A program made the translations under genes and the position numbers. Shown one piece after another: positions 7,661 through 61,050 of a stretch of 64,000 nt of DNA. The notes under the pieces are model-generated. The model was not told the DNA's origin. It was given only the letters and a program-made list of their open reading frames with translations, and did no database searches. The stretch is from Alloprevotella sp. Lineage in GTDB: Bacteria > Bacteroidota > Bacteroidia > Bacteroidales > Bacteroidaceae. Where the stretch lies: assembly GCA_017471505.1 (NCBI GenBank), contig JAFUTC010000007.1, positions 248,001-312,000 of the forward strand. Direction: 5' to 3'. Positions within the stretch are counted from its first letter, which is position 1. The number at the start of each line of letters is the position of its first letter.

Positions 7661-8552
7661 TTTTTCGATAGTCATTCCCTTCTACAACCGAGCCAAATGG
7701 CTACCCGCCACCCTCGCGTCATTGTCGGACTTGCTCACCTGGCCCGTCGAACTGATTTTTGTCGATAACCAATCGACCGACCTGTCGGTCCAACTGATTG
7801 AGCGCTTTATGGCCGACAACAGCCAGTCGGCGGCATCGGTCCGACTCCTTAGCGAACCGAAGCGCGGTGCCGCTGCTGCACGCAACTGCGGCCTGCATGC
7901 GGCCACACGCCCTTATGTATTCTTCTTCGACTCCGACGACGAGTTCTCACTATCCCATTTGGAAGAAGCACTACCCCATGTCGGAACAACCGACCTGATA
8001 CTGTCAGCCACACGCATGCGAGTTGCATCAGGGCGCATCACCACCAGGCGCAGTTGTCGAACGCTCTCGCCCGCCGACCAGATACTGACCGGCCAACTGT
8101 CGACGCAGTCCATGATTTTCCGAACGGACTTTCTGAAACGCATCGGCGGCTGGAATGAGAATTTGCCTATATGGAACGACTGGGAACTGGGCATAAGAGC
8201 CCTGAAGTCCGAGCCGCGAGCCGTTTGGCTAAGCCATGCCCACCATCTCATCAACCAGCACGCGAACAGCATAACGGGAACCGACCGGAAGTCGCACTTC
8301 TCAGGCTACCTGTCGGCAATTAACGCCGTGGACCATATGACTCTGACATCCCATGAGCGGCATGCACTCCGAGCCCGTACGACCATTCTTGCCGCCGAAC
8401 TTCGTAGCGAAAAAGCGCACGAAGAATCGCAGGCACTGCTGCAGGCCTATCCGCTCACAAATGCGGCCTACAAATTGCTCTTCCTATACGCCCGCACTTT
8501 GCACAAAGGCAGTTGGTGGCTTTATAGGAACTTGCTCGGAAAATCACTATAG
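7644..8552 (+). CDS. Family 2 glycosyltransferase
   Basis: 302-residue GT2 enzyme of a different subfamily from the two upstream genes. It opens with FSIVIPFYNRAKWLP, typical of GT2 nucleotide-sugar binding, followed by VDNQSTD, GAAAARNCGL and the acidic FFDSDDEF motif (about residue 95). WNEDWELG-like acceptor residues occur as WNENLPIWNDWELGIRA. No transmembrane helix is obvious. The ATG lies inside the end of the preceding gene, so the three glycosyltransferases form one transcription unit. The gene ends before a hairpin at 8582-8619 and a 21-bp palindrome array. Confidence 0.85.
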   Translation: MDVRDNFSIVIPFYNRAKWLPATLASLSDLLTWPVELIFVDNQSTDLSVQLIERFMADNSQSAASVRLLSEPKRGAAAARNCGLHAATRPYVFFFDSDDEFSLSHLEEALPHVGTTDLILSATRMRVASGRITTRRSCRTLSPADQILTGQLSTQSMIFRTDFLKRIGGWNENLPIWNDWELGIRALKSEPRAVWLSHAHHLINQHANSITGTDRKSHFSGYLSAINAVDHMTLTSHERHALRARTTILAAELRSEKAHEESQALLQAYPLTNAAYKLLFLYARTLHKGSWWLYRNLLGKSL

Positions 8553-8581: not shown

Positions 8582-8619
8582 CGTGTTATAATCCTATAAA
8601 TAAAGCAAATTATAGCACG
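8582..8619 (+). terminator. Hairpin after the glycosyltransferase operon
   Basis: Inverted repeat with arms 8582-8592 (cgtgttataat) and 8609-8619 (attatagcacg), 11 bp with one G-U wobble and a 16-base AT-rich loop. No clean U-run follows, so termination is plausible but weakly supported. The stem may instead be a degenerate edge of the adjacent repeat array. Confidence 0.4.
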
Positions 8620-8729
8620 TGAAAATTGTATTATACAATCAAAAAATTCAATTATACAATTTCGAAATTGCATAATACAATCTGCAAATTGCATTATGAA
8701 ATTTTTCGATTCCATTATGCAATTTTTTC
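8604..8729. repeat. 21-bp-period palindrome array, locus 1
   Basis: Five clear near-palindromic 15-mers start at 8625, 8646, 8667, 8688 and 8709, exactly 21 bases apart. The second reads attcaattatacaat and the third attgcataatacaat. A degenerate sixth unit fits at 8604. Between the cores lie AT-rich 6-mers. On the minus strand the array reads as a heptad pseudo-peptide (pattern NCIMQF.), an artefact of 21 = 3 x 7. The array fills most of the 338-base gap between the glycosyltransferase operon and the DUF4332 gene. The same family occurs at 19.5, 27.4 and 59.3 kb. Confidence 0.9.
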
Positions 8730-17152: not shown

Positions 17153-18262
17153 TTAACGGCGTCCGCCACTTCTGCCACCGCCGCCGCTGCCGAACGAACG
17201 GCCGCCGCCACTGTAAGAACCGCCGCTGTAACTGCGACCTCCGCCGCTGTAGCTGGAGCCACTGCTCGACGAGGAGCGGCTATTACCGAACGAACTGCTA
17301 CGACTACTGGAACTGCTGCCAGAGAAGCTTCTGTTGCGAGAAGAACCATTCGAGTTGCTGCTGCCACTATTGTAGCTGCGGTTTCCGCTGCGGCCGCTGT
17401 TTATGCTGCCGTTGGTCGTGCCCGGAGTCGTACGGTTGTAGGTGCTGCTACCGCCGAACGAGCGACTGCGACTGTTGCCGTTGTAGATTCCTCCGCGGTT
17501 GGTGCTGCCACCATAGTTGCCATAACTGCCATAGTTGTTGCTGCGACCGGTTCCATAGTTGTAGCGGTGGCTGCTGTTACGGGAGTTGTTGGCCACATGA
17601 CCGTCGCGACGTCCGCCCCAGCCTCCGTAGTAGCGGTCATAATGGGTTCCTCCACGGCGATAGGCGTAGTCGTTATAATGATGGATGGGACGGTAGCCGC
17701 CATACCAGTGGTTGTAGTGGGGATAATACCAGCGGTTCCATGCATAGCCGTACCAGGGATCATACCAACCGCCGTGCCAGCCTACATACCAGCCCGAGTA
17801 CCAACCAGTGCGCCATGCCCAGCTGCTATAAGGACGCCAAGTCCAGGAATACCAGGGGTCGTACCAGAAAGCGTCGTACATGTCCCAGTAATAAGGACTC
17901 AGAACGACTATCGTACTGGGCGAGTGGAAACGGATTATGCGGGTGGTGTATTGTCCGTCTTCAATCGCTACGTCGTCCTCTACAACCGTCTCGTTGGAGC
18001 CGTTGTAGTTGCCGCGGCGATTATACGAATCGACGTCCTTACGCTGGTTGCGGCCTACATACCAATCGTCGTCGCTGTCATAAGCATCGACATTGCCGGT
18101 TGCAGGCAGCGTCTCGTAGGTCGAATAGTCGGACGAAGGCGTTACCGTAGTCACCTTTGCTTTTTCCTGCGACTTCTTCGGAACGAAGTATACGTCGTCC
18201 TGTGCATAGGTGCTCACTACGCAACCCATCATCAAAACTAAGAGTAGAAGTGACTTTTTCAT
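17153..18262 (-). CDS. Secreted Trp/Tyr-rich then Ser/Gly-rich low-complexity protein
   Basis: 369 residues with a signal peptide (MKKSLLLLVLMMGCVVSTYA, cleavage before QDD). After about 90 acidic/polar residues comes a central block dense in Trp, Tyr, Gly and Asp (for example WYDPWYSWTWRPYSSWAW). This passes into a Ser/Gly/Asn/Arg-rich tail ending GGGGRSGGRR. No enzymatic motif is recognised. Similar composition occurs in Bacteroidales cell-surface proteins of unknown function. A surface or matrix role is inference. The opposite strand has long open frames here only because of the biased composition. Confidence 0.75.
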   Translation of the reverse strand: MKKSLLLLVLMMGCVVSTYAQDDVYFVPKKSQEKAKVTTVTPSSDYSTYETLPATGNVDAYDSDDDWYVGRNQRKDVDSYNRRGNYNGSNETVVEDDVAIEDGQYTTRIIRFHSPSTIVVLSPYYWDMYDAFWYDPWYSWTWRPYSSWAWRTGWYSGWYVGWHGGWYDPWYGYAWNRWYYPHYNHWYGGYRPIHHYNDYAYRRGGTHYDRYYGGWGGRRDGHVANNSRNSSHRYNYGTGRSNNYGSYGNYGGSTNRGGIYNGNSRSRSFGGSSTYNRTTPGTTNGSINSGRSGNRSYNSGSSNSNGSSRNRSFSGSSSSSRSSSFGNSRSSSSSGSSYSGGGRSYSGGSYSGGGRSFGSGGGGRSGGRR

Positions 18263-19448: not shown

Positions 19449-19568
19449 AGCGCCTTACGAAATCCGAAAATTGCATAATACAATCTGAAAATTCAATTAT
19501 ACAATTTCGAAATTCCATTATGTAATTTTCAAATTCCATTATGCAATTTTTCAATCCCATTATGCAAT
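19449..19568. repeat. 21-bp-period palindrome array, locus 2
   Basis: Cores start at 19470, 19491, 19512, 19533 and 19554, exactly 21 bases apart (first attgcataatacaat, fourth attccattatgcaat). A degenerate unit fits at 19449. The array sits between divergent genes (LysM glucosaminidase left, debranching enzyme right), in a 458-base gap that otherwise holds only promoter motifs. The first two cores are the same 15-mers as the third and second cores of locus 1, and 4- to 6-base linkers are shared. Confidence 0.9.
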
Positions 19569-27429: not shown

Positions 27430-27528
27430 ATTCCATAATGGAATCAAAAAATTGCATTATGGGACAGCGAAATTGCATTATACAATTTGCGGATTGCATA
27501 ATGCATTTTTTGGGTTACATAATCGGAC
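27430..27528. repeat. 21-bp-period palindrome array, locus 3
   Basis: Cores start at 27430 (attccataatggaat, a perfect palindrome), 27451, 27472, 27493 and 27514, exactly 21 bases apart. The second and last are degenerate on the right half. The array begins 23 bases after the secreted-protein stop and ends about 150 bases before hpt. Confidence 0.88.
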
Positions 27529-41431: not shown

Positions 41432-41489
41432 ATTCCAAGCCTTGAAATGCGCATTTCAAGGCTTGGAATATGCGTTTCAGGGCTTGAAA
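41432..41489. repeat. Perfect 38-bp palindrome with an extra direct half-copy
   Basis: The arms attccaagccttgaaatgc (41432-41450) and gcatttcaaggcttggaat (41451-41469) are exact reverse complements with no loop. A second, diverged copy of the right arm (gcgtttcagggcttgaaac) follows at 41472-41490. It lies between divergent tamL and the methyltransferase gene. Confidence 0.85.
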
Positions 41490-41581
41490 CGGAACGCAGG
41501 CCTATGAGGTATTACGAGCGGAATGTGTTATCTTCGCCTCAGACCGTAGCCACGCACCACACGTGGCTACCGCGAAATGCC

Positions 41582-42343
41582 ATGATTACGAAAAACGAAA
41601 TCAAAGAAATCAGAGCCCTCCAAAACCCGCGCCAACGCAAGGCCACGGGGCTCTTTGTGGCCGAAGGCCCAAAGGTGGTAGGCGAACTCTTTGAGCAACT
41701 CGCCTGCCGGCAGATAGCGGCCACCGAGGAATGCCTGCCGCTGCTCTCCGCCGCCATGCAGTCGAAAACCACCACCGTCTCGGCGAAAGACATGGAACGC
41801 CTCTCGGCCCAGAAGACGCCGCAAGGATGCGTGGGGGTATTTGAAATGCCCGCCTACGAACCACCTACCGAGCGACAACTGCTGACCGACCTGACGCTGG
41901 CCCTCGACGGCGTGCAAGACCCGGGCAACCTCGGCTCCATCATCCGTACGGCCGTGTGGTACGGCATAAGCCACATCGTGTGCTCCGCCGACACCGTCGA
42001 TGCCTTCTCGCCCAAGGTAGTCCAGTCCACTATGGGCGCACTCGGCCGCATACAGATAACCCGCTGCAACCTGGTCGAATTTCTGAACAACCTGCCCGAC
42101 GGCGTTCCCGTGTACGGCACCCTGCTCGACGGCCATAATATCAACGACGCCGCACTCACGCCAAACGGCATAATCGTCATGGGCAACGAAGGCGCCGGAC
42201 TGTCGGACGACGTGCGATCCCTCGTCAGCCACCGGCTTCTGATACCACCCTACCCCGCCAACCAGCCGCCGCAGATTGAAAGCCTCAACGTGGCACTCGC
42301 CACCGCCATCGTCGTCGACCACTTCCGCCGCCCACGCAGTTGA
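41582..42343 (+). CDS. TrmH/SpoU-family RNA 2'-O-methyltransferase
   Basis: 253-residue SPOUT methyltransferase. The N-terminal substrate-binding part starts MITKNEIKEIRALQNPRQR with ATGLFVAEGPKVV. The knotted SAM-binding domain has LALDGVQDPGNLGSIIRTA, IIVMGNEGAGLSD and IPPYPANQPPQIESLNVALA, the three TrmH motifs (the last slightly altered from the usual SLNVSVA). It methylates ribose in rRNA or tRNA; the exact site is unknown. The open frame extends upstream to 41447 through the palindrome, but the ATG at 41582 begins the conserved domain. Confidence 0.9.
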   Translation: MITKNEIKEIRALQNPRQRKATGLFVAEGPKVVGELFEQLACRQIAATEECLPLLSAAMQSKTTTVSAKDMERLSAQKTPQGCVGVFEMPAYEPPTERQLLTDLTLALDGVQDPGNLGSIIRTAVWYGISHIVCSADTVDAFSPKVVQSTMGALGRIQITRCNLVEFLNNLPDGVPVYGTLLDGHNINDAALTPNGIIVMGNEGAGLSDDVRSLVSHRLLIPPYPANQPPQIESLNVALATAIVVDHFRRPRS

Positions 42344-57856: not shown

Positions 57857-59206
57857 TTAAAAGCCCACATAGTTGTGCGGCGTAATTTTTCGCAGTTCGT
57901 CTTTCACCTCGGGAGCCACCTCCAGTCCGTCGATAAACACTTCGAGGCGGGCTTGCGTAATCTTCTCGTTGGTGCGGGTAAGTGCCTTGAGCGTCTCATA
58001 GGGATTCGGATAGCCCTCACGGCGCAAGATGGTCTGGATAGCCTCGGCCACCACGGCCCAGTTATTGTCGAGGTCGGCACCGATAGCCTCGCGGTTGACA
58101 AGCAACTTGCCCAGACCTTTCAGCGTGCTCTTCAGGCCGATGAGAATATGCGCCAGAGGCACGCCGATATTGCGTATGACGGTCGAATCGGTCAAGTCGC
58201 GCTGCAGGCGGCTCACCGGCAGTTTCCGGCTTAGGAATTCAAGCGTCGACACCGCAAGCATCAGGTTGCCCTCCGAGTTCTCGAAGTCAATCGGATTAAC
58301 CTTGTGGGGCATCGCACTCGAGCCAACCTCGCCGGCCTTGATGCGCTGCTGGAAATAGCCCATCGAGATATACTGCCACACGTCGCGGTCGAAATCGACC
58401 ACGATAGTAGCCAGTCGCTTCAACGCGTCGAAGACGGCGCTCATACTGTCGTAGTTCGAAATCTGCGTAGTCACCGCTTCACGGCGAATATGCAGTCGCT
58501 CGGTCAGGAACTGGTTGGCAAACGCAGGCCAGTCGGTCTTGGGATAAGCCACACGGTGCGCGTTGAAATTACCCGTAGCACCGCCGAACTTGCCCGACAG
58601 GTAGTCGTTGGCCAGTATCAGATGGGCCAACTGCTGCTCCAGGCGGTAGCGGAACACGTCGAACTCCTTGCCGAGGCGAGTCGGACTGGCCGGCTGTCCA
58701 TGGGTGCGGGCCAGCATCGATATGTCGCTGTATTCCTCGACCTTTGCCTTGACCTGTTCAATCAACTCGCTAAACGACGGAATAATGCACTGCGACAAGG
58801 CATCCTTCAGCATGAGCGGAAAAGCCGTATTGTTGATGTCCTGACTGGTCAGACCGAAGTGCACACACTCCTTTTCCTCCTGGAAACCGCCGATGGCGTC
58901 TAGTTTCTCCTTGATGAAATACTCTACGGCCTTCACGTCGTGGTTCGTCACCGACTCAATCTCCTTCACGTGCTTTGCGTCATCCAAAGAAAAGGTTTCA
59001 TAGATGGAGCGCAACCGTGCCGTCTCCTCACCCGACAGTTGTCGCATGCGAGTCAAGCCAGAAGCAGAAAGGTAGATAAAGTATTCTATCTCAACGAATA
59101 ATCGATACTTTATTAAAGCCTTTTCCGAAAAGAAGTCCGACAGTTGTGCGGTGGCTTTGGCATATCGGCCGTCGATGGGCGATACAGCTAACAACGATTT
59201 TTCCAT
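57857..59206 (-). CDS. purB: Adenylosuccinate lyase
   Basis: 449-residue homotetrameric lyase acting twice in purine synthesis, on SAICAR and on adenylosuccinate. The start MEKSLLAVSPIDGRYAK is typical of the long bacterial form. MLARTHGQPASPTRLGKE and the signature SSAMPHKVNPIDFENSEGN (flexible loop with catalytic Ser) are present. The open frame continues to 59275 through the promoter, so the ATG at 59206 is chosen. It leads the minus-strand unit, with a 21-bp palindrome array directly upstream of its promoter. Confidence 0.96.
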   Translation of the reverse strand: MEKSLLAVSPIDGRYAKATAQLSDFFSEKALIKYRLFVEIEYFIYLSASGLTRMRQLSGEETARLRSIYETFSLDDAKHVKEIESVTNHDVKAVEYFIKEKLDAIGGFQEEKECVHFGLTSQDINNTAFPLMLKDALSQCIIPSFSELIEQVKAKVEEYSDISMLARTHGQPASPTRLGKEFDVFRYRLEQQLAHLILANDYLSGKFGGATGNFNAHRVAYPKTDWPAFANQFLTERLHIRREAVTTQISNYDSMSAVFDALKRLATIVVDFDRDVWQYISMGYFQQRIKAGEVGSSAMPHKVNPIDFENSEGNLMLAVSTLEFLSRKLPVSRLQRDLTDSTVIRNIGVPLAHILIGLKSTLKGLGKLLVNREAIGADLDNNWAVVAEAIQTILRREGYPNPYETLKALTRTNEKITQARLEVFIDGLEVAPEVKDELRKITPHNYVGF

Positions 59207-59245
59207 AGGTTTCTGTGTGTGCGGGACAGTGTCCGAATTAAAATG

Positions 59246-59253
59246 CAAAAGTA
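59246..59253 (-). promoter_or_regulatory. -7 box (TACTTTTG) for purB
   Basis: Minus-strand TACTTTTG, 39 bases before the start. The repeat array begins 8 bases upstream of it, where a -33 would lie. Confidence 0.6.
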
Positions 59254-59260
59254 CATCAAA

Positions 59261-59380
59261 ATTGCATAATAGCACAGAAAAATCGCATAATACAATCGCA
59301 AAATTGCATTATGCCGCAGCCGAATTGCCTTATGCAATTTCAAAATCCGATTATGCAATTCTCGCGTTCCATAGCACTGG
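59261..59380. repeat. 21-bp-period palindrome array, locus 4
   Basis: Cores start at 59261, 59282, 59303, 59324 and 59345, exactly 21 bases apart, with a degenerate sixth at 59366. Best-kept examples are attgccttatgcaat (59324) and atccgattatgcaat (59345). The array covers the -33 region of purB and abuts the endonuclease terminator. Confidence 0.9.
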
Positions 59381-59439: not shown

Positions 59440-61050
59440 CTACGGAACGAGAACCTTCTTGCCGTCGATGATATAAATACCGTGGGTCGGATTCTTAACG
59501 CGGCGTCCGGACAGGTCATAGACCACACGCTCGCGAGCAGGCTTCTCCACTTCGATGCCATCGATACCGGTTACTACATCGCGGTGATACAGGCTCAAAC
59601 TTGCCTGCGACGACGTATAGCAACGGAACATCGGCGTCGAGTTATTGCACTGCAACTTGTACGTAGTACGCGATGCATTCGTTATCGTAGCCACGCCAGA
59701 ACTTACCGTAATGTTCCAGTGTGCATCATTACTCGTGGCGTCGGCAGCCGTATGGATGGCATTGGCATTGCTTGTCAGGGCAAGGTATTTCTCTTGCCTG
59801 GTGTCGTAGATGGTATAGCTGGTGCCGTCCTTCGTTATGATAAACACCGTCGGAAGGTCATCTGCATTCGTCTCCGACTCTACCGTATTCACAAGAGCCC
59901 TGCGGCCGCCGGTTGCCAGAGTAACCTGCGCGCTACGGTCTGGGGCAGATGCCGAACCGGAACTATTGATGCTGACGTCAACAGCCAGCAATCGGGTTGT
60001 ACCCGGGCCACCGGCCGCCTTAGCCTTCGATTCGCACACGATAATATACTCGTCGCCGTCAACAAGGTCGGCCGTGCTGCCTACGCGCGTATAGGTGTTG
60101 CCCGTTGAAGTAGAGCCACCGCCGCCACCTGAAGAGCCGCCGCCGCCTTCCTCGCTGCCGCCACCGCCACCACCTGTGTCGATGCCAGAGCCATTGTAGC
60201 CGCCCGCACCGTTGAGTATGGCAGAAGAGTCGTAGTTATCAGGGTCGAACGACACATCCGTCTTCGTACCCCAGACAATCTGCTCAAGGCCCGGGAAGTC
60301 TACGTAGGGATTACGGTTCTTTTGGATGGAATATACGGCATTATTGCGATTGATTTCCTTCTGACTTACAGGGTCGTTGATGGCCCATCCGAGCAGCATG
60401 TTCAAGTACCATTCGTTGTAGAACGGATAGGTGCTTCCGTCGATTGCATCGCTCGACCAGTCGGAAGAAAGGGTCTTCTCGTAGGCCGTAGCCATGTAGA
60501 AATAGATACGTGCCAAGTCGCCTTTATACATGTCGTTAGGCTCGAACACGGTTCCCGAATATCCGGAAATGGAATTCGTACCTAATTTGGAAAAGCCTCC
60601 GCTCGACTCATATTTAATATTCGTTGAACTGACCACGCCATAAGGATAGTTGGAGCGGCGTCCGTTCACATAGCCGTCAGAAGGAATCAGATGGTGCAAA
60701 TCCGTATACATCGGATATTCATCATTGAACCAACTCTTCGGGAAAGAGTGCTCGCGGTTGTAGCAATCGCCTTCTACTTTGTAAGTAGCACCCTTCGACT
60801 GCCATTCATAGTTCGTAATGCCGGAATACATATCGTAGATATATCCGTCATCACGCGTGTCGGTCGTCTTAAAGTCGGCCCAAAGGTTAGTATAGGTGCG
60901 CTGCGTGTGAGAATAGATAATGTCACACAAGGCAGTCTTCAATGCTTGTCCGCTCTTACCCTTCGCAGCCTTGTAATAGTTAGCAGGAATCTGCGCATAG
61001 GAAAGCGAGACGGTTAGCAATAAGAAAAACAAGAAGTAAAGTTTCTTCAT
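59440..61050 (-). CDS. Secreted endonuclease I family nuclease with C-terminal sorting-like tail
   Basis: 536 residues. A signal peptide (MKKLYFLFFLLLTVSLSYA) is followed by an EndA/endonuclease I domain with YNREHSFPKSWF (98-108) and the beta-beta-alpha metal motif TDLHHLIPSDGYVNGRRSN (116-134). It probably degrades DNA outside the cell for nutrients. A Gly/Ser-rich linker (GGGGGSEEGGGGSSGGGGG near residue 295) joins a second beta-rich domain. The last 28 residues (VVYDLSGRRVKN...GIYIIDGKKVLVP) match the tail of the secreted protein at 25.5-27.4 kb. Confidence 0.88.
   Translation of the reverse strand: MKKLYFLFFLLLTVSLSYAQIPANYYKAAKGKSGQALKTALCDIIYSHTQRTYTNLWADFKTTDTRDDGYIYDMYSGITNYEWQSKGATYKVEGDCYNREHSFPKSWFNDEYPMYTDLHHLIPSDGYVNGRRSNYPYGVVSSTNIKYESSGGFSKLGTNSISGYSGTVFEPNDMYKGDLARIYFYMATAYEKTLSSDWSSDAIDGSTYPFYNEWYLNMLLGWAINDPVSQKEINRNNAVYSIQKNRNPYVDFPGLEQIVWGTKTDVSFDPDNYDSSAILNGAGGYNGSGIDTGGGGGGSEEGGGGSSGGGGGSTSTGNTYTRVGSTADLVDGDEYIIVCESKAKAAGGPGTTRLLAVDVSINSSGSASAPDRSAQVTLATGGRRALVNTVESETNADDLPTVFIITKDGTSYTIYDTRQEKYLALTSNANAIHTAADATSNDAHWNITVSSGVATITNASRTTYKLQCNNSTPMFRCYTSSQASLSLYHRDVVTGIDGIEVEKPARERVVYDLSGRRVKNPTHGIYIIDGKKVLVP

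Follow-up and report, generated by a model that had tools for sequence, protein, structure and literature searches.

Evenly spaced arrays of near-palindromic sites at an exact 21-bp period in an Alloprevotella genome

Results

Arrays in a 64-kb window

The window, by which we mean the whole 64-kb stretch analysed (positions 248001-312000 of contig C4 in Alloprevotella sp. genome G000), contains four arrays of a near-palindromic 15-bp unit, here called family F1, and one array of a second family, F2. F1 array 1 (8625..8723) has five units, at 8625, 8646, 8667, 8688 and 8709, and lies between a glycosyltransferase gene ending at 8552 and a DUF4332/HHH gene starting at about 8891. The five units of array 2 (19470..19568) are at 19470, 19491, 19512, 19533 and 19554, between a divergent pair of genes encoding glucosaminidase-LysM (minus strand) and glycogen debranching enzyme (plus strand). 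Array 3 (27430..27528), flanked by two plus-strand genes, has units at 27430, 27451, 27472 and 27493 and, as judged by eye, a decayed fifth at 27514. Array 4 (59261..59359; units at 59261, 59282, 59303, 59324 and 59345, the first and third of them weak) is located between purB (ORF 57857-59275) and an endonuclease I gene (59440-61050), both on the minus strand. The F2 array (41433..41489) sits between F1 arrays 3 and 4 and consists of three units, TTCCAAGCCTTGAAA, TTTCAAGGCTTGGAA and TTTCAGGGCTTGAAA, at a step of 21 bp. The ORF model of a SpoU methylase gene (41447-42343) shares its first 43 bp with this array; the gene itself probably starts further inside the model.

A sequence-only reading of the same DNA had described the four F1 arrays and given each of them five good cores. 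Re-reading of the positions bore out the five cores of array 1 and the places of all four arrays; the count of good cores did not stand for array 3, with four good cores and a decayed fifth, or for array 4, which is partly decayed. All four F1 arrays had also been placed between genes, and on inspection they are, though mechanical ORF lists overlap some of them (gene models throughout are longest-ORF models). With up to three mismatches, the F1 15-mer has 38 matches on the two strands of the window against 2.17 expected, and none of 100 shuffles reached 38. We found no common theme among the eight genes beside the four F1 arrays, and an Rfam search of the window returned three tRNAs only, with nothing at the arrays. 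A 21-bp repeat at 17196-17255 of the window falls within long reading frames and is unrelated in sequence to the arrays; it is probably a seven-residue protein repeat.

The F1 family across the genome

G000 is a 1.44-Mb draft genome, 77% complete. We read 614 kb of it (C1:1-350000, C4:128001-312000 and C2:1-80000), which is 43% of the incomplete assembly, and called F1 arrays by a symmetric weight matrix with a two-unit threshold. This gave 46 arrays, compared with none in nine Markov-shuffled copies (three per stretch); each of eight other gaps from 17 to 25 bp gave 0-2 candidate pair clusters per stretch. Across the whole 1.44 Mb, a strict pattern of two adjacent F1 units occurs 143 times per strand, and its reversed control does not occur. 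The family first noticed as four arrays is thus confirmed by the genome scan and is larger than noted, and the excess of period 21 over shuffled DNA is clear.

The register of the units is exact. Of 152 distances between neighbouring strong cores less than 60 bp apart, 136 are 21 bp, 7 are 42 bp and 9 are 8 or 13 bp. Among the 199 strong cores lying no more than 130 bp from an array, six depart from the register, always by 8 or 13 bp; four of the six lie inside arrays and are made of the right half of one unit and the left half of the next, and the remaining two are separate cores past array ends. The spacing was said to be invariant, and we indeed find the units without indels between them at a step of 21 bp. 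At the threshold used, 30 of the 46 arrays have five units, 10 have four, 4 have six and 2 have three. One array, C1:348041, lies deep in a long ORF model without a Pfam match, and this frame looks antisense and spurious.

Anatomy and self-pairing of the F1 unit

In 100 interior units, loosely chosen by their own score, the pattern ATTnnATwATnnAAT is near invariant. The variable part is limited to two positions per half, mainly GC, CC, GT or CA, and the core is bordered by A-tracts. The units are polar, in that the canonical GC and the A-tract are commoner in the outward half while the inward half varies. Among the 30 five-unit arrays, the left half carries the canonical GC in 77% of units 1 and 2, and in unit 5 it is carried by the right half in 60% and by the left half in 37%. 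The spacers, likewise, grade from ..GAAA on the left to TTTTC.. on the right. As a result of this outward bias and the spacer gradient, the F1 array has a rough dyad symmetry overall, with its units pointing outward. Alignment of 34 arrays shows that phased AT steps continue weakly beyond the five units, to about units -5 and +5, which suggests a somewhat larger complex; these outer steps are not above all other offsets at each unit (0.29 at unit -4, as at the best other offset).

Pairing was assessed in 121 clean cores out of 220 F1 units with 5000 permutations. The two halves of a core are identical in 16 of 121 cases against 32.0 expected, and the facing halves on either side of a spacer agree in 4 of 74 against 14.3 expected; none of the 5000 permutations gave so low a count in either comparison. 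Between mirrored units, matches are at the chance level (9 of 34 against 9.5). Avoidance of perfect palindromes went in the same direction without being significant in F2 (8 of 33 against 10.1, P 0.24) or in the F2' family of the nearest relative described below (13 of 39 against 16.6, P 0.11). That F1 avoids self-complementarity speaks against RNA stems or cruciforms, since selection for those would have the opposite effect. On this test of matching halves, F1 more probably acts as a duplex than as a hairpin. An RNA of repeated stems, one of two explanations offered by the sequence-only reading, is therefore not supported for F1, whose halves pair less than chance.

A second family and an even grid

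Neither a second family nor a regular spacing of about 10 kb had been noted in the sequence-only reading. The F2 and F3 families were found by a de novo search for any palindromic array. At a score threshold of 1.15, this search made 41 calls on C1 and none in the one shuffled control of that contig. Of the 33 non-F1 calls in the G000 stretches, a core-motif filter kept 12, namely 11 F2 arrays and one F3 array; four of the 12 overlap ORF models (C1:79357, C1:305266, and 44817 and 73368 of the C4 stretch). The 21 dropped calls comprise 16 inside ORF models, one of which (C1:4361) is a weak F1-like array, and five outside, which are 18-, 20- or 24-bp calls. The F2 core is TTTCAAGSCTTGAAA, in the same geometry as F1 (7-1-7 plus 6), and the number of units is three in all 11 F2 arrays of the G000 stretches. 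F3 is a single array of period 22 bp, TTGGACGA...

The grid in G000 comprises 58 arrays and 55 intervals with a mean of 10.05 kb. When compared with 5000 random draws of intergenic gaps of at least 100 bp, the intervals are far more even than chance (CV 0.37 against 0.96, with none of the 5000 simulations so low). None of the 55 intervals is below 4.2 kb, where 17.9 were expected, and the longest gap is 21.5 kb against 44.7 kb simulated. The distance cut-offs used here and below (4.2, 3.5 and 2.8 kb) were chosen post hoc with the data already seen; the CV tests are free of cut-offs. In the C4 piece, where F1 and F2 interleave, the successive intervals are 12.6, 9.7, 11.8, 10.1, 10.5, 10.2, 7.8, 10.7, 9.0, 7.5, 8.9, 8.6, 10.6, 10.8, 8.0, 14.0 and 17.8 kb. 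F1 alone is even (none of 43 intervals below 4.2 kb against 11-12 expected), and F2 alone in G000 is not significantly so (9 intervals, P 0.14).

The two families also keep away from each other. All 11 F2 arrays are at least 5.6 kb from the nearest F1 array, where by chance 61% would be closer than 5 kb, and the median distance is 10.1 kb against 3.9 kb simulated (P 0.0006). Loss by recombination between near copies was considered as the cause of this avoidance and rejected, since the cores of F1 and F2 differ. The ratio of F1 to F2 is 31:3 on C1 and 10:8 on C4 (Fisher P 0.005, tested after seeing the data), as if core families held territories. The contig that carries dnaA in G000, C14, is outside the stretches read, and dnaA was not found in the draft genome of the nearest relative, G002.

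Sites and cores in the nearest relative

G002 has a purB gene 76% identical to that of G000, with a median of 74% over 98 reciprocal best matches. Its F1 family is weaker, with 14 arrays of at least three units and a best-three score of 16.1 against 23.1 in G000, and it has a second family, F2', with core TTTCACASTGTGAAA and 13 arrays. The spacing test, which left out the 7 of 21 F1 calls having only two units, covers 27 arrays and 24 intervals. The intervals are again even (CV 0.49 against 0.93, none of 5000 so low), and none is shorter than 4.2 kb where 3.8 were expected (P 0.011). The longest gap, at 62.8 kb against 81.6 kb simulated, is not unusually short (P 0.17).

We compared 66 orthologous gaps between the two genomes, allowing up to two other ORF models between orthologues. 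Five of the 66 hold an array in G000, and G002 has an array in three of these five and in none of the 61 in which G000 has none (Fisher 2e-4). Among gaps of at least 90 bp the comparison is 3 of 5 against 0 of 23 (P 0.003, resting on five gaps). In two of the three shared gaps F1 corresponds to F2', so that the core has been exchanged, and in the third F1 corresponds to F1. Of the remaining two G000-array gaps, the purB gap (array 4 of the window) holds a decayed F1 remnant in G002 and the other holds none. In these few cases, at least, the arrays keep their places and their phase while the recognition word changes.

Units of F1 and of F2 type also share one 21-bp register within single arrays, in three cases from the two genomes. 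The order is F2 F2 F2 F1 in G000 (C1 near 172.0 kb), F1 F1 F1 F2' F2' weak F1 F1 in G002 (C15 near 146.6 kb), and F1, F1, F2', F2', F1 with weak F1 units at 30.3 kb of the stretch read of C10 in G002. The exact register, the conserved sites with exchanged cores and these mixed arrays lend support to the earlier suggestion that spacing is under selection.

The same design with other cores in wider relatives

Only in G000 and G002 did we find the F1 core. The strict F1 pattern is absent from the 56 other genomes of the genus, many of them incomplete, and from 392 genomes of the order, G000 being the sole match among 393. Those scans first suggested that F1 is an oddity of its lineage, a view that we dropped as de novo scans found other cores. 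Arrays of the same design with other cores are present in G017 (GATCCATGGGATG, at 21 bp), G066 (AAAAGGTTAACCTTTT, at 21 bp) and G061 (at 21 bp), and G080 has several cores, namely TCACGAG at 22 bp, GTTTGCTNCCGGCAAAC at 21 bp, TTGGACA..TGTCCAA at 22 bp, and CCTATAAGACAATTTT and TTCCCACCTATGGGAA, each at 22 bp. Among congeners, calls are few in G033 (one in 100 kb) and, at a stricter threshold, in G017 (one in 240 kb); G015 gave no noncoding call in 40 kb, no arrays were found in 37.5 kb of G073, and the calls in G004 are mainly simple repeats of 18 bp. Over the 180 kb of G080 that were read (C6:100001-280000), 19 arrays of mixed families show no interval below 3.5 kb among 18, against 5.0 expected (P 0.0002), and a CV of 0.59 against 0.84 (P 0.034); two of 21 calls, one of which (209831) carries a family core, were omitted there as covered by ORF models. 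By eye, runs of a single core seem clustered in this stretch.

Named relatives were represented by 80 Bacteroidota loci around purB, the genus itself not included. Their de novo scan ran without a shuffled control, and simple repeats make up many of the 46 noncoding calls; the loci cited are those clear by eye. Arrays at 22 bp are found at the purB loci of Bacteroides congonensis (L072, GTTTCCCNNNNGGGAAAC), of four Prevotella (L076, L078, L085, L091) and of a reindeer Bacteroidaceae (L077, two arrays). A strict pattern of the Bacteroides core gave only two such arrays in its own genome. The Prevotella core of L085, AAAGGCCGTCTTT, has 291 two-unit matches in genome G451 against one in the control. 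Among the matches listed, at least 31 arrays lie on three contigs of G451, and none of 28 intervals is below 2.8 kb against 5.8 expected (P 0.0006) in a simulation of uniform rather than intergenic placement. For the same listed matches the CV is not low when one 91-kb gap is included (1.35 against 1.02, P 0.96) and weakly low without it (0.67 against 0.89, P 0.035). Of the relatives, spacing was tested in G002, G080 and G451; it is more even than chance, least clearly so in the Prevotella genome G451.

Several side observations concern these and other loci. At four loci (L163, L076, L077, L085), an array of the relative's own core precedes purB by no more than a few hundred bases, like array 4 of the window. 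Intergenic 18-bp repeats of 9-bp words (e.g. GTGAACGCT), a different kind of array, occur at L192, L194 (G004), L195 and L199 (G066), and several simple intergenic repeat stretches of 14, 16 and 42 bp at L209 (G009 C2:1-20000). At L161, L086, L103, L125 and L138, seven-letter simple repeats (such as AAAGTTG, CAACTGA and GAGAATT) mimic period 21 between genes. GATGTGTATAAGAGACAG is present at about positions 10-30 of L122, at the end of contig NZ_LRPB01000012.1; we take it to be the Nextera transposase adapter, probably left in the public assembly.

Discussion

Here, we have described arrays of phased near-palindromes that recur about every 10 kb in the stretches of G000 read and that occur with other cores in its relatives. 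We found no description of such arrays in the open-licence PubMed Central literature, and they may be described elsewhere. The two-turn phasing, the oriented units, the narrow unit numbers and the graded outer contacts fit a protein assembling on one face of the DNA. Our preferred reading, which we hold tentatively and a little short of even confidence, is that copies of a sequence-specific protein line up next to one another on the duplex, with an effect that extends over about 10 kb and probably serves to organise the chromosome. We propose that each array could be a landing platform on double-stranded DNA for a putative sequence-specific protein, with one dimer bound per 15-bp near-palindrome. 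A step of 21 bp, or two helical turns, would place the dimers on one face with neighbours able to touch, so that an F1 array might carry five dimers and an F2 array three, in a complex roughly symmetric about the array centre. The sequence-only reading had named a cooperatively binding protein, and the exact register, the core exchange at kept sites and the mixed-core arrays are, as judged from sequence, consistent with one.

How far an array may act is suggested by the distances. A distance floor, and in G000 also a ceiling, is common to families with different cores, which argues that each array serves about 10 kb, within which another would be redundant. If each array acts over roughly 10 kb, about one per 10 kb would be kept and near duplicates would not, whatever their core family. 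PMC9071471 gives estimates for the spacing of supercoil barriers in E. coli of one per 10 to one per 100 kb. As the scale of about 10 kb is within this published range, an anchor or barrier role is our best guess, and the most likely action would be that arrays bridge or anchor DNA to form loops or supercoil domains of about 10 kb. It is conceivable, though we are less confident here, that in this bacterium and its wider kin the arrays are evenly spaced anchors, about one per 10 kb, whose positions are selected, and that from species to species the recognition word and its protein are replaced as a pair. They would then be a bacterial counterpart of regularly spaced domain boundaries, read by fast-evolving DNA-binding proteins of interchangeable specificity.

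Local gene control would also involve a bound protein. The arrays could be operator clusters or insulators between transcription units, without a chromosome-wide role and with a spacing that follows operon layout. Indeed the arrays stand between genes, and arrays 1 and 4 of the window are near promoter-like words (judged by eye against the Bacteroidetes promoter motif). Random placement in real intergenic gaps nevertheless fails to reproduce the spacing. The 35 assignable F1 arrays (11 of the 46 are unassignable) lie in 20 tandem, 9 convergent and 6 divergent gaps, close to the 83, 24 and 45 counted for gaps of at least 140 bp (Fisher P 0.11 and 0.09, approximate values since some arrays are in shorter gaps); they show no clear preference for gene ends or promoters, and the eight genes beside the window arrays share no theme. 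We consider this explanation unlikely, although it is the one among the alternatives that we would take most seriously. The arrays could instead be marks of self DNA, one site per fragment of about 10 kb, for a machine of uptake, packaging, repair or defence. Spacing that is regular and bounded from below, in G000 also from above, would suit such marks, as would the rarity of the F1 pair pattern in viral contigs, where it occurs in only 10 stretches (eight of two units and two of three) that by eye are chance AT-rich matches, none of them F1-like in core and flanks. Against this, we found nothing pointing to such a machine, and five-unit phased arrays would seem to exceed the needs of a recognition mark, so that we regard this role as improbable.

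To a mobile or selfish repeat, whether a MITE, a REP/RAYT-like element or a minisatellite, with even spacing brought about by target immunity, we would give a similarly low probability. The many dispersed copies, the species-specific cores and the several families per genome are what such a repeat would leave, and three of the eight genomes searched (G017, G066, G080) encode a Y1 transposase. The same transposase (PF01797) was, however, not found in the other five, G000 (77% complete), G002 (incomplete), G061 (99%), G450 and G451. Among flanks taken 60-360 bp outside the 46 F1 arrays, the sole match with E <1e-3 is between two flanks of one array; moreover, the unit number is narrow without indels between units, families with different cores exclude each other, and the same orthologous gap may hold different families. 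RNA elements, that is tandem hairpins or bidirectional terminators, are slightly less probable again. They would account for the palindromes, for loop-like centres in some cores of other species and for the A-tracts and T-tracts that flank F1 arrays, but in F1, as judged from matching halves, perfect pairing is avoided both inside the core and over the spacer, 6 of the 35 assignable F1 arrays are between divergent genes with neighbours in all orientations, and Rfam gave nothing in the window beyond the three tRNAs. The avoided pairing and the orientations of the neighbouring genes also led us to reject the intrinsic terminator, a stable hairpin at gene 3' ends. That the arrays are a neutral by-product of slippage or hairpin-templated repair seems very improbable; some relatives do have simple intergenic repeats (e.g. 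of 14, 16 and 18 bp), but position-specific conservation, narrow unit number, even spacing and conserved sites all stand against it. CRISPR was rejected, as the units here are 15 bp and varied with 6-bp spacers, in contrast to near-identical repeats with unique spacers of repeat length.

If the arrays do organise the chromosome, they would provide a sequence-encoded, countable ruler of domains of about 10 kb in a large bacterial group, and one could ask directly what sets supercoil-domain boundaries, an old question, by removing sites or shifting them. Core exchange at constant positions would also be unusual, in that related species would differ in the sequence of a whole chromosomal set of sites and agree in where the sites lie.

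Comparison with known systems

The BrickBuilt elements of Porphyromonas gingivalis resemble the arrays in being intergenic tandem repeats of similar unit length in another Bacteroidota species. PMC4596501 describes 19 elements with a 23-nt unit, 1 to 22.8 repeats, indels of up to 6%, homologous leader and tail, and terminal inverted repeats. Unlike these, our arrays are without shared leader or tail, inverted ends, variable repeat count or indels, and the first 18 letters of the BrickBuilt repeat consensus have no exact match in 58 genomes of the genus. Since the arrays share no flanks, they are not a MITE like BrickBuilt.

REP/BIME elements, which go with RAYT transposases, are like our arrays in being species-specific intergenic palindromes in clusters. 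Fixed phasing and even chromosomal spacing are not known as features of REP/BIME, and a Y1 transposase was not found in five of the eight genomes here, of which G000 and G002 are incomplete. An imperfect hairpin of the REP/BIME type kept by half-pairing was rejected for F1, whose halves match less than chance.

The sites of matS/MatP, Noc, SlmA and parS are, like ours, near-palindromic duplex sites dispersed on the chromosome. These known sites are single, of one sequence and largely confined to a region. The arrays here have about three to five phased units, are evenly spaced and occur in each of the three G000 stretches read, with several interchangeable cores that change between species. 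In common with matS or Noc sites, F1 is a duplex palindrome with position-specific conservation (100 interior units). A set of single sites that share one sequence and are confined to one macrodomain does not describe the arrays, given their different cores and their presence in all three stretches. PMC3330122 gives matS as 13 bp with 23 copies in 800 kb.

A further likeness is with helix-phased repeated sites. Iteron arrays of plasmid origins and the operators of ArgR and MetJ are helix-phased repeats bound cooperatively, and they are single loci that control replication or one regulon. The arrays described here differ from them in forming a chromosome-wide grid.
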